Below, one piece after another: positions 22,284 to 45,098 of a stretch of 59,336 nucleotides of DNA. Under the pieces are notes generated by a model. The model was not told the origin of the DNA and ran no database searches. It saw nothing but the letters and a program-made list of their open reading frames with translations. Made by a program: the position numbers and the translations under genes. This DNA comes from Salegentibacter tibetensis (GTDB lineage Bacteria; Bacteroidota; Bacteroidia; Flavobacteriales; Flavobacteriaceae): assembly GCF_020164485.1 (NCBI RefSeq), contig NZ_JAIQZA010000026.1, forward strand, positions 1 to 59,336, in the 5' to 3' direction. Numbering within the stretch: position 1 is the stretch's first letter; the number at the start of each line of letters is the position of its first letter.

Positions 22284-22316
22284 TAGTATTTCTATATTTT
22301 TAAATTATAAATTTAG

Positions 22317-22351
22317 ACCTCACAGTTTTTTAAATTCTGTGAGGTTTTTTT
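22317..22351 (+). terminator. intrinsic terminator after the M1 peptidase gene
   Basis: Perfect 9-bp stem (22317-22325 with 22337-22345), 11-base loop and a run of seven T. Confidence 0.9.
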
Positions 22352-22379: not shown

Positions 22380-22487
22380 CGTCATTCTGAAACTGCCCGT
22401 CCGTTCAGACGGGCTTGTTTCAGAATCTAAGCTGTTAGAACTCCGAACAAATTTCGGAACAGGCTCTGAAACAACTTCAGCTTGAGG
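22380..22487. repeat. interspersed repeat of the CATTCTGAA / TTCAGCTTGA type
   Basis: Starts CGTCATTCTGAA, contains TTTCAGAATCTAA, TTAGAACTCCGAA and ends ACTTCAGCTTGAGG. Internal hairpins pair TGAAAC..GTTTCA and CCGAA..TTCGG. A perfect 6-bp GC hairpin (CCCGTC/GACGGG, 22396-22413) is nested inside. Related copies are at 25076, 29404 and 34769 and at the ends of the long repeat at 58663. Confidence 0.75.
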
Positions 22488-25010: not shown

Positions 25011-25075
25011 ATTTTTTTAAAGTAGATTTGTTCAAAATTAAAAAAGAAAAGACCTGTCTAAAAGGCTTTTTAAAT

Positions 25076-25224
25076 CGTCATTCTGAACCTGCCCGTCCGT
25101 TCAGGCGGGTTTATTTCAGAGCTTGCTCCAAAATTTGTTCGGAGTTCTAAGTTATGGGTAACACATACATGTTAGAATCCCGAAGTAAATTCGGGATAAA
25201 GTCTGAAACAGGTTACCATTGACG
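25076..25224. repeat. interspersed repeat, CATTCTGAA type
   Basis: Begins CGTCATTCTGAACCTG and ends CAGGTTACCATTGACG. Contains the nested GC hairpin (25092-25109), CTCCAAAATTTGTTCGGAG and CCCGAA..TTCGGG. Clearly related to the copy at 22380. Confidence 0.75.
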
Positions 25225-25591
25225 TATTTCTAAAATCCTGATATTTAGGTTTGTTTTTATATTTCTATATTCAAAAAGAAACTTACCTGGTTTGGAAGTT
25301 CATTTTTCATTTTTTGCGTGTATTCCTCTCACTGCGTTCGTCGGATACAAGTAAAACGAAACAAAAAAGGGCGCCCTATGTGGAGGTGTTTTTTTGGCAA
25401 CAAGGCCAAAAAACTGCAAATCAGCAGCTAAATTTTTTCCAGGGCCCTTCGACTCCACTCAGGACAAGCTTTCAAAAATTATTAACGCTGCTGATTTTCT
25501 ACACTCACACACGGAGTTTAAAACTGGCTTTGCTCGAAAATGTCATTTTCCTCCGCTAGGTAATTTTTTTATCACGGGTCTCAGCTTGACG
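25201..25591 (+). repeat. long interspersed repeat, copy A
   Basis: Almost the whole segment reappears as reverse complement at 58663-59110. Shared blocks in order include ATCCTGATATTTAGGTTTG, AAAGAAACTTACCTGGTTTG, CCTCTCACTGCGTTCGTCGG, ATGTGGAGGTGTTTTTTTGG, AATCAGCAGCTAAATTTTTT, TCGACTCCACTCAGGACAAG, CACACGGAGTTTAAAACT and CTCCGCTAGGTAATTTTTTT. Open frames on it are not conserved proteins, only a by-product of nucleotide identity. It fills the gap between the GNAT and rpiB genes. Confidence 0.9.
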
Positions 25592-25636
25592 AAATTAGAC
25601 TTTTTAGACGGCCTCTTTTATAATTAAATATTCTTA

Positions 25637-33742: not shown

Positions 33743-34117
33743 ATGGCAAATACAGGAAGTACACTATTAGCATTAATTACCGGAGCTGCAATTGGAGCAG
33801 GAGTAGGTCTATTATATGCACCAGATAGCGGAGAAGAAACCCGCAAAAAATTAAAAGACGAGTCTAAGAAGGCTCAGGACAGATTAAATAAAAAGTATAC
33901 TGAGACTTCTTCTAATCTAACCGAAAAAGCTAAACAAGCTCGTGTAGATTTTGAAGCACGCTTAGAAGAAACACTTTCTTCAGCGAGTCATAAAGCAGAT
34001 GATATTCTTACTGCAATGGAAACTAAATTAGAAGAGCTTAGAAAGCAAAATGCCAAACTACAGAAAGATGGTAAAGGCGGAGATTCTAAAGACCAACCTA
34101 ATAAAGCAGTAGTATAG
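33743..34117 (+). CDS. YtxH domain protein
   Basis: 124 residues: one N-terminal hydrophobic segment with GAAIGAGVGLLYAPDSGEETRKKLKD, the YtxH signature, then a long charged helix likely to form a coiled coil (KQARVDFEARLEETLSSASHKADDIL...). Membrane-anchored; related proteins are induced by general stress in Bacillus. First of three closely spaced genes (gaps of 10 and 5 bases). Confidence 0.85.
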   Translation: MANTGSTLLALITGAAIGAGVGLLYAPDSGEETRKKLKDESKKAQDRLNKKYTETSSNLTEKAKQARVDFEARLEETLSSASHKADDILTAMETKLEELRKQNAKLQKDGKGGDSKDQPNKAVV

Positions 34118-34127
34118 AAGCATTTGT

Positions 34128-34478
34128 ATGGCATTCGAAAAACTATCCAGAAGTATTGATGAGTTAAATTATAATTTGAAGGCATTTGCGCATAGCAATG
34201 CCGAATATTATAAACTCAAGTTCTTTAAACAAGCCATGAAAGGGGCCATCGGTCTCGTGCAGGGTCTTTTGCTGGGTATTTTTATCATTTTTGCCATGAT
34301 CTTGCTATCTGTAGCCGTTGCAATTCTTATTAGTGAGGCTATAGGCTCACCAAGTTCCGGTTACTTTATTGTTGGCGGATTCTATTTTCTATTATTCCTC
34401 CTTATCCTAATCTTCGGAAAAAAACCTATTGAAAAAATGCTTTTGGTAAAAGTTTCGAGAAAATTTTTTAACGACTAA
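34128..34478 (+). CDS. holin-superfamily-III-like membrane protein (not prophage)
   Basis: 116 residues: an amphipathic start, then two membrane helices (about 43-70 and 82-102) and a basic tail. It matches proteins commonly labelled 'phage holin family' in Bacteroidota. Here it lies in a YtxH operon with no phage genes nearby, so a cell-envelope role is more likely than lysis. Function unknown. Confidence 0.7.
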   Translation: MAFEKLSRSIDELNYNLKAFAHSNAEYYKLKFFKQAMKGAIGLVQGLLLGIFIIFAMILLSVAVAILISEAIGSPSSGYFIVGGFYFLLFLLILIFGKKPIEKMLLVKVSRKFFND

Positions 34479-34483
34479 GCGAT

Positions 34484-34717
34484 ATGAAGGAGTATAGTTC
34501 ATTTAAAGAAATTGATAGGGATTTAAAAATTCTGAAACTGCAAACCAAAATAGACCGGGAGGAGATAAAATTGAATATAGAGCGCACTAAAAGTGCCCTA
34601 TCTCCTTTATCTCTTATGGGAAGTATGGTAGGATCTATCTTGCAAAAAGCATTAATTCTTAAAGCTGTAACGAAGCTTACCGGTTTAAAAAAGGTAACCG
34701 CTTCAGTAAAGAAATAA
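34484..34717 (+). CDS. small conserved protein, third gene of the YtxH operon (possibly DUF6327)
   Basis: 77 residues: highly charged N-terminal helix (FKEIDRDLKILKLQTKIDREEIKLNIERTK), then a glycine-containing hydrophobic stretch (LMGSMVGSILQKALIL). I believe this family is annotated DUF6327, with low certainty. Linked by 5 bases to the holin-like gene and followed by the operon terminator, so it is a real gene. Role unknown. Confidence 0.65.
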   Translation: MKEYSSFKEIDRDLKILKLQTKIDREEIKLNIERTKSALSPLSLMGSMVGSILQKALILKAVTKLTGLKKVTASVKK

Positions 34718-34736
34718 AGATTCTTAGAGATATTAT

Positions 34737-34860
34737 AAAGGTTTGAGAGTTTATTTTTAAAATCATAGGTCATTCTGAATTTATTTCAGAATCTAACATG
34801 TTAGAACCTGAAGCAAGTTCAGGTTGACGGAGATAGAAAATAAACCTTCAAACCTTTTTT
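34737..34860 (+). terminator. terminator of the YtxH operon with a repeat inside its loop
   Basis: Arm 34737-34757 pairs with 34837-34857 at 19 of 21 positions; the second arm runs into a TTTTTT tract. The first arm lies 20 bases after the stop codon. The 79-base space between the arms holds a complete interspersed repeat (34769-34829). Confidence 0.7.
34769..34829. repeat. interspersed repeat, short CATTCTGAA copy
   Basis: GTCATTCTGAA, TTTCAGAATCTAA, CATG, TTAGAACCTGAA, TTCAGGTTGAC: the simplest form of the family, made of two hairpins separated by a palindromic TCTAACATGTTAGA. Confidence 0.8.
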
Positions 34861-34900
34861 ATTCAATAATTTTGACCCATGTGGTAAACTGAGATTGCAA

Positions 34901-35934: not shown

Positions 35935-36080
35935 CAAAAAATAGGCTGTTTGAAACTACATTTCAAACGTCATTGCGATCCCGATTCTTATCGGGAGAAG
36001 CAATCTCTCCAATTGTAAAGATTGCTTCGTTCCTCGCAATGACGACCGAAAATCAAGTAGTTTTAAATAGCCTACTTTTA
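35935..36080 (-). terminator. gltX terminator with a repeat inside its loop
   Basis: Read on the minus strand, arm 36074-36057 lies 26 bases after the gltX stop and pairs with 35959-35942 at 16 of 18 positions; a T-run (35936-35941, then TTTT after one G) follows. The 97-base loop holds a repeat with the arms CGTCATTGCGA (35968-35978) and TCGCAATGACG (36034-36044). Confidence 0.65.
35968..36044. repeat. interspersed repeat, CGTCATTGCGA type
   Basis: Perfect 11-bp terminal arms, inner GAAGCAATCT / AGATTGCTTC arms and a small CCCGAT..ATCGGG hairpin. A related copy lies at 44993-45072. Confidence 0.8.
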
Positions 36081-44947: not shown

Positions 44948-44971
44948 TTAGGTTCTGAGTTTCTTAAGAAG

Positions 44972-45098
44972 AACTGTCTCAAAATAAATTTCAACCTCAT
45001 TACGAACGAAGTGAAGTAATCTCTAAATGGATTACTACTAATTGCAGATTGCTTCGTTCCTCGCAGTGACGGAAGTTATTATTTTTGAGACAGTTTTT
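44972..45098. terminator. terminator between the OmpH-like and DoxX genes with a repeat inside its loop
   Basis: Arm AACTGTCTCAAAATAA (44972-44987) pairs with 45079-45095 apart from one bulged base, and a TTTTT run ends the right arm. The 91-base loop contains a CGTCATTGCGA-type repeat copy. The arms lie 25 bases after the OmpH-like stop and 9 bases before the convergent DoxX stop. Confidence 0.6.
44993..45072. repeat. interspersed repeat, CGTCATTGCGA type, degenerate copy
   Basis: Shares AGATTGCTTCGTTCCTCGCA and TGACG with the copy at 35968; the left half has diverged (CCTCATTACGAACGAAG). Confidence 0.7.

Follow-up and report, generated by a model that had tools for sequence, protein, structure and literature searches.

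CGTC-REP dimers enclosed by terminator-like inverted arms at gene ends of Salegentibacter tibetensis and related genomes

The window, i.e., the whole stretch of DNA analyzed here, is the 59,336-nucleotide contig NZ_JAIQZA010000026.1 (C107) of the 4.21-Mb genome of Salegentibacter tibetensis (G000). On the 3' side of small ORFs (33743-34717) it carries a 26-nt inverted repeat with 85% complementarity, with the left arm at 34732..34757 and the right arm at 34837..34862 (both plus strand), the latter followed by TTTTTT. The left arm is a diverged member of the arm family described below and was found to be kept in seven relatives. Between the arms are 79 nt containing the core, a type A head-to-head dimer of CGTC-REPs at 34769..34828 (plus strand). 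The layout of arm, core and arm proposed in an earlier note on this DNA was thereby confirmed, as was the spacing of 79 bases. The open loop was not, since the two REPs pair with each other in the predicted fold and the element therefore forms one long hairpin. The corresponding RNA (34730-34866) was predicted to fold at -46.6 kcal/mol (z -8.4), and none of 200 shuffled sequences folded as well.

Three further loci had been said to share both the layout and the core. The geometry was recovered at 25050-25619, 35940-36076, and 44969-45098, but the common core was not. At 35.94 kb the arms (35940..35959 and 36057..36076, minus strand, with the T-run on that strand) enclose a type B dimer (35969..36043), where six relatives have type A. 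At 44.97 kb the arms (44969..44989 and 45078..45098) lie between convergent ORFs and enclose a diverged type B dimer (44996..45070), while five relatives have type A in other arms. The z scores for these two folds were -10.8 and -5.6, respectively; like the 34.74-kb element, both fold far better than shuffled sequences. At 25.01 kb, arms on the minus strand (25050..25069 and 25597..25619) enclose a type A dimer (25077..25590). The cores at 35.97 and 45.0 kb read GTCATTGCGA..GAAGCAATCT rather than CATTCTGAA, the sequence taken earlier as common to all four loci. CATTCTGAA occurs six times in the window (expected 0.78, maximum among 100 shuffles 5), with true repeat copies only at 22381, 25077, and 34769 (the last as GTCATTCTGAA). 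It was rejected as a marker of the element because the other three sites are not repeat copies.

The remaining dimer of the window lacks arms (22381..22487, plus strand, same orientation in seven genomes). It adjoins, on the downstream side, a short terminator-like hairpin at 22316-22351 and is not located in the loop of that hairpin. The hairpin itself (ACCTCACAGGTTT..AAACCTGTGAGGT) has further copies as a short terminator-like repeat and is among the top arm 6-mers of G010 and G012; a relative of it adjoins a RAYT-like gene in L232. A further repeat of ~370 bp (~25215-25582), which starts with ACCATTGACGTATTT and ends near ATCACGGGTCTC, splits the right REP at 25.01 kb. Inserts like it were found in L003, L008, L023, and L027, where they interrupt REP dimers at the corresponding position, and the repeat seems to target REPs. 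An Rfam scan of 20-46 kb returned one tRNA only, and no plasmid match was found.

Both core types consist of two inverted hairpins with CGTC outermost. Type A is present at 34.74 and 25.05-25.62 kb and type B (GTCATTGCGA..GAAGCAATCT) at 35.94 and 44.97 kb. In type A, a stem dinucleotide covaries with its partner (TT/AA, TC/GA, AG/CT, AC/GT). Aligned core copies begin with CGTC and end with GACG, apart from a few altered ends, and the stem-loop at 34769 (ATTCTGAA-TTTAT-TTCAGAAT) agrees with the stem of 8-9 bp and loop of 4-5 nt of CGTC-REPs. In many copies the loop is longer and contains additional hairpins, and the stems of type B pair imperfectly. The core fits the known superfamily of CGTC-tagged REPs, two of which are arranged head to head as a dimer. 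A first REP detector was too loose, with 18, 5, 15, 1, and 2 dimers compared to 9, 6, 7, 3, and 0 for the reversed sequences, and a stricter one was used instead. With the stricter detector 26 dimers were found in 1.2 Mb of G010, G014, and G012 (11, 5, and 10 per 400 kb, respectively) and none in reversed sequence; single units numbered 54 compared to 28 in reversed sequence. This detector misses diverged copies: it reports only two dimers in the window, without those at 22.38, 25.01, and 44.97 kb, and none in 31 kb of G005, although composites are plain to the eye there. In 400 kb of G006 it found no dimer.

Within the window alone the arms look unrelated, and the earlier note had regarded them as host terminators on that ground. 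Genome-wide, however, they belong to one diverged family with the consensus AGAGGCTGTYTGAAAAGT that is common to many loci. CTGTCTVAAA has 85 matches in the genome compared to 31 for the backward pattern; at repeat copies the matches read like AGAGGCTGTCTGAAAAGTTTTTTAAATC..core..GAAATTAGACTTTTCAGACAGCCTC, and near-identical arms are present at many loci. For 60 distinct dimers drawn from loci of the window's genome, the window itself and relatives, the mean flank complementarity was 29.5, compared to 22.4 when left and right flanks were taken from different loci and 16.9 after shuffling, and 34 of the 60 exceeded 99% of shuffles. A gapped test was chosen because a gap-free hairpin scan misses bulged arms. 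The gap-free scan placed 4/11, 2/5, 2/10, and 2/2 of the dimers inside hairpins, and the long-loop hairpins that it found (12, 15, 11, 9, and 4) were, as a class, barely above the reversed control (11, 10, 7, 7, and 1). Arm-bearing dimers were defined by a flank score of at least 28 (n = 36, some of them orthologs); the other 24 REP dimers have weak or no arms, so enclosure in arm hairpins holds for 36 of the 60 and not for all. Departures of the left arm from the majority letter were matched on the right arm in 59 of 113 cases (permuted mean 18.1, maximum 33 in 1000 permutations). Sites and genomes are related, and the counts given here and below are not independent. The genome-wide arm family, the flank complementarity and the matched changes together lead us to reject unrelated arms at the four loci of the window.

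Arms and core were also found to be copied jointly. G166, from another genus, carries seven copies that form two subtypes; arms, cores and spacers are near-identical among them, and their flanks differ. Similar sets of near-identical composites are present in G005, where one composite is nested in another. The earlier note had stated that identical arms at different loci would make them part of the element; near-identical arms are indeed present both within the genome of the window and in the seven copies of G166. Since arms and core are copied together into differing flanks, this suggests that they are mostly one unit and that the arms belong mostly to the element. The copies share terminal inverted repeats, as is typical for miniature inverted-repeat transposons. 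Among 30 loci from 30 genomes of other genera, six were arms with REPs (five found by script and one by eye), including one with a decayed right arm and one with a single REP, and 24 were chance matches. Of 20 further chosen places 19 were REP-bearing, which added four genera and brought the total to ten besides that of the window.

Hairpins resembling the arms are also present without cores. Short GCTGTYT..ARACAGC hairpins were found in 198 of 299 Flavobacteriaceae genomes, at ~480 places compared to ~74 for the backward pattern (manual totals). As they are so common, an old terminator type that gained a REP dimer may be the origin of the arms. In 400 kb of G006 one of 68 short hairpins was arm-like by a strict pattern (reversed sequence has 46 hairpins), and at anchored sites the relatives of G006 carry no composite where it has core-less arm-like hairpins elsewhere.

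Syntenic stretches were compared in ten other genomes of the genus. The tree (22,989 columns, rooted on G001/G003) is a ladder in which G006, G005, G012, G014, G004, G010, and G002 branch in that order, followed by G009 with G000. At 34.74 kb core A lies in alike arms in eight genomes; G006 has those outer arms around a 31-nt loop and no REP, and G001 and G003 have another long-loop hairpin. At 35.94 kb core B was found in G000 and G012, core A in six genomes and short hairpins in G006, G003, and G001, and cores A and B replace each other within matching arms. At 44.95 kb core A was found in five genomes and core B, in other arms, in G000; G010 has a tiny palindrome in the common arms, G006, G003, and G001 have short hairpins and G005 is unreadable. 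The short hairpins of G006 at 35.94 and 44.95 kb have arms similar to those of the relatives. The core of G010 at 44.95 kb is just CGTCGGCACGGCCGGACG, a third and minimal core with CGTC..GACG ends. At 25.01 kb six genomes have composites and G014 and G004 have a short hairpin with matching arms, AAAAGACTGTTTAAAA-TG-TTTTAAACAGTCTTTT or nearly so; G006, G003, and G001 have neither. On the tree this short form is most simply explained by core loss, rather than by a state preceding insertion. The earlier note had proposed looking in relatives for a terminator-like hairpin lacking the core, and one with similar arms was found at each of the four sites (with short loops at three and with 31 nt at 34.7 kb). 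This result favors the interpretation given in the note, which is thus partly supported.

A short terminator-like hairpin was present in none of the 28 REP-bearing combinations of site and genome and in 8 of the 15 REP-less ones, one further case being unreadable. REP elements and short terminator-like hairpins are thus mutually exclusive at the four sites. At a fifth place the same A- and T-tracts flank a composite in G010 and G012 and an unrelated short terminator in G014. At one other locus the short hairpin differs in each of seven genomes, and GTCT-type arms occur in some of them. A search for orthologs of L060 gave, besides itself, short weak matches only, and next to L070 the relatives carry other sequence. 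We rejected introgression as the source of the state common to G000 and G012 at 34.74 and 35.94 kb, as G012 was nearest to G000 in none of 11 stretches; the nearest was G009 in six, G002 in three, G004 in one and G010 in one.

At three sites two classes of enclosed segment can be distinguished, whose alignment improves when one class is reverse-complemented; the outer arms remain fixed. The classes are G000 and G012 versus G009, G014, G004, G010, G002, and G005 at 34.74 kb; G009, G004, G010, and G005 versus G014 and G002 at 35.94 kb; and G014, G004, and G012 versus G009 and G002 at 44.95 kb. The shoulders between arm and core alone, in the 8, 5, and 4 genomes that could be cut, gave the same split (marginal for G005 versus G012, 36 to 37), and the DNA was therefore inverted and not inserted twice. 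Leaving interspecies exchange aside, a reconstruction by hand on the tree requires at least five events. Only one orientation was seen at the arm-bearing sites 25.01 kb (six genomes), G010:53276 (three), G010:285762 (two), and G010:1690 (two), and at the arm-less sites 22.38 kb (seven), G010:70473 (three), G010:164816 (two), and G010:284135 (two). Inversion was thus found at three of seven arm-bearing and none of four arm-less sites, which are too few for a test.

The elements are stable predicted hairpins just downstream of genes, as expected for terminators. Of the 36 arm-bearing dimers 18 lie between convergent and 16 between co-directional genes, none between divergent genes and 2 are unassigned; the corresponding numbers for the other 24 dimers are 4, 17, 1, and 2. 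The gene end was within 120 nt of the core in 44 of 52 cases (median 49.5). The T-run was said to lie on the side expected for the upstream gene; T-runs are present at the loci of the window, but over the 36 dimers they are not above background. T-rich windows at arm ends were found in 14 of the 36 arm-bearing dimers and in 38 of 96 control flanks, i.e., without enrichment. A run of four T was present on the expected side in 24 of 52 cases and on the other side in 5 of 16. All 36 arm-bearing dimers had at least 10 flank-flank pairs in the predicted folds (median 27), as did 133 of 176 folds in which the right flank came from another locus (median 18.5). Swapped flanks also pair because the arms have a common consensus, and the pairing is therefore strong without being specific. 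Given the lack of T-run enrichment and the unspecific pairing, what speaks for termination is the position of the elements and the mutual exclusion between them and short hairpins.

Y1 transposase genes were searched for REP-like ends. The genome of the window has nine matches to Y1 transposases. Of 35 such loci examined in the genus, six had unit-like matches (10 matches in total, compared to 3 in the reversed control). In G010, five of these matches are type B units that flank a single IS200-like gene on either side, and they lie outside a 580-bp element whose copies in G014 and G005 are without them; hence no REP-bounded transposase was found among the Y1 genes at these 35 loci. The 580-bp element of G010 (L238) is located in a cluster of type B REPs, and one end of its copy in G012 (L244) falls within a type A dimer, which would fit insertion into REPs or close to them.

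The compared sequences show joint copying of arms and core, matched arm changes, flips of the inside within fixed outer arms, and swaps or absence of the core between similar arms. The feature would be a composite of ~110-150 bp, made of a head-to-head CGTC-REP dimer and outer inverted arms (AGAGGCTGTYTGAAAAGT) that, beside an A- and a T-tract, resemble a two-way intrinsic terminator. Placed at gene 3' ends, it may replace the ordinary short terminator; self-folding of the REP dimer could bring the arms together, so that the hairpin would still terminate transcription. DNA polymerase might switch templates between the arms, which would jointly account for matched arms and inversions; it would not account for the unit reaching new places, for which ectopic conversion among terminators or a trans-acting transposase may be considered. 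With some reserve we lean towards this explanation, in which the composite palindrome stands in for gene-end terminators while its arms are homogenized and its inside flipped by template switching. A wider reading, to be taken as tentative, is that these terminators are exchangeable and invertible modules, with arms as template-switch points and a REP dimer that is swapped, flipped or dropped with a working terminator retained throughout, so that a selfish repeat persists as a gene-end signal.

The earlier note preferred independent host terminators, each invaded in its loop by a mobile core; a single-strand (Y1, HUH) transposase might mediate this. The occurrence at these sites of core-less hairpins whose arms are similar, the exchange of A and B cores in one arm pair, the abundance of short GCTGTYT..ARACAGC hairpins in the family and the locus with seven different short hairpins agree with it, but arms are common to loci and copied with the core, such arms surround CGTC-REPs in ten other genera and no Y1 gene with REP ends was found at the 35 loci, and we consider it unlikely. 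An ordinary miniature inverted-repeat transposon with GAGGCTGTYTGAAA ends, whose gene-end location and likeness to terminators are incidental, would explain near-identical copies in different flanks, the nested composite of G005 and T-runs at background level. It would not lead one to expect the absence of arm-bearing dimers between divergent genes or the mutual exclusion with short hairpins; no target duplication was obvious when the flanks of composite copies were read by eye, and no partner transposase was seen among the Y1 genes, which makes this account rather improbable. Least of all do we favor a hairpin that stabilizes or processes mRNA 3' ends and is not a terminator. Its probability appears very small: the predicted folds are very stable and downstream of genes, and REPs are discussed as post-transcriptional elements in cited parts of Di Nocera et al. 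(2013; PMC3733652), but none of the 28 REP-bearing intergenic regions at the four sites has another short terminator-like hairpin.

Parts of this are already described, namely CGTC-REPs, REP dimers within palindromes and template switching. REPINs are two inverted REPs dispersed as one unit; compared to these, the composite has outer arms in addition and no linked RAYT was shown. We know of no transposase and no clear role for CGTC-REPs. The cited parts of Di Nocera et al. (2013; PMC3733652) describe CGTC-tagged REPs in Bacteroidetes and in G. forsetii, mostly as head-to-head dimers with no linked transposase. The elements found here agree with these in the outer CGTC, the palindromic unit, the head-to-head dimers, the 3' side of genes, a Bacteroidetes host and, among Y1 genes, the lack of a linked transposase. 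They differ from that description in terminator-like outer arms, inversion in place, core swaps and short alleles, and in the unpaired tail after the stem, which is CTAA or CTC (CTAA in the genus, CTCA in G166) instead of mostly CCA. The same source places REP dimers within longer palindromes for GTAG-15 of A. variabilis, GTAG-23 of T. roseum and CGTC-1 of H. neapolitanus, with all CGTC-1 dimers of H. neapolitanus inside palindromes, and the REP dimers studied here are enclosed in longer palindromes as well. In the portions cited those palindromes are not called terminators, and target palindromes unlinked to REPs are reported as not found in A. variabilis and H. neapolitanus, whereas here core-less hairpins exist at orthologous sites (PMC3733652). 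Template switching between inverted repeats in yeast, as far as the cited part of PMC8604942 describes it, homogenizes arms and reversibly inverts the spacer. Arms are alike and spacers flip in both cases; spacers are 2-5 bp in coding genes in yeast and ~90-130 nt at gene ends in these bacteria. No precedent was found in the open-access literature for REP dimers inside terminator-like hairpins with short, swapped and inverted orthologous alleles.

The filled, empty, swapped and inverted states at orthologous sites of eleven related genomes make REP turnover directly testable. If the hairpins terminate transcription, a repeat family would have usurped a basic gene-end signal, and bacterial template switching would be recorded naturally at the ends of genes. 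A REP-less segment of 93-106 nt was observed at 308443 in G010, 304503 in G014, and 306001 in G012 (joined 400-kb runs, in the orientation of the window). It is nearly alike in the three genomes, lies in AAAGACTGTTTAAA-type arms with a T-run, and is possibly a small RNA.
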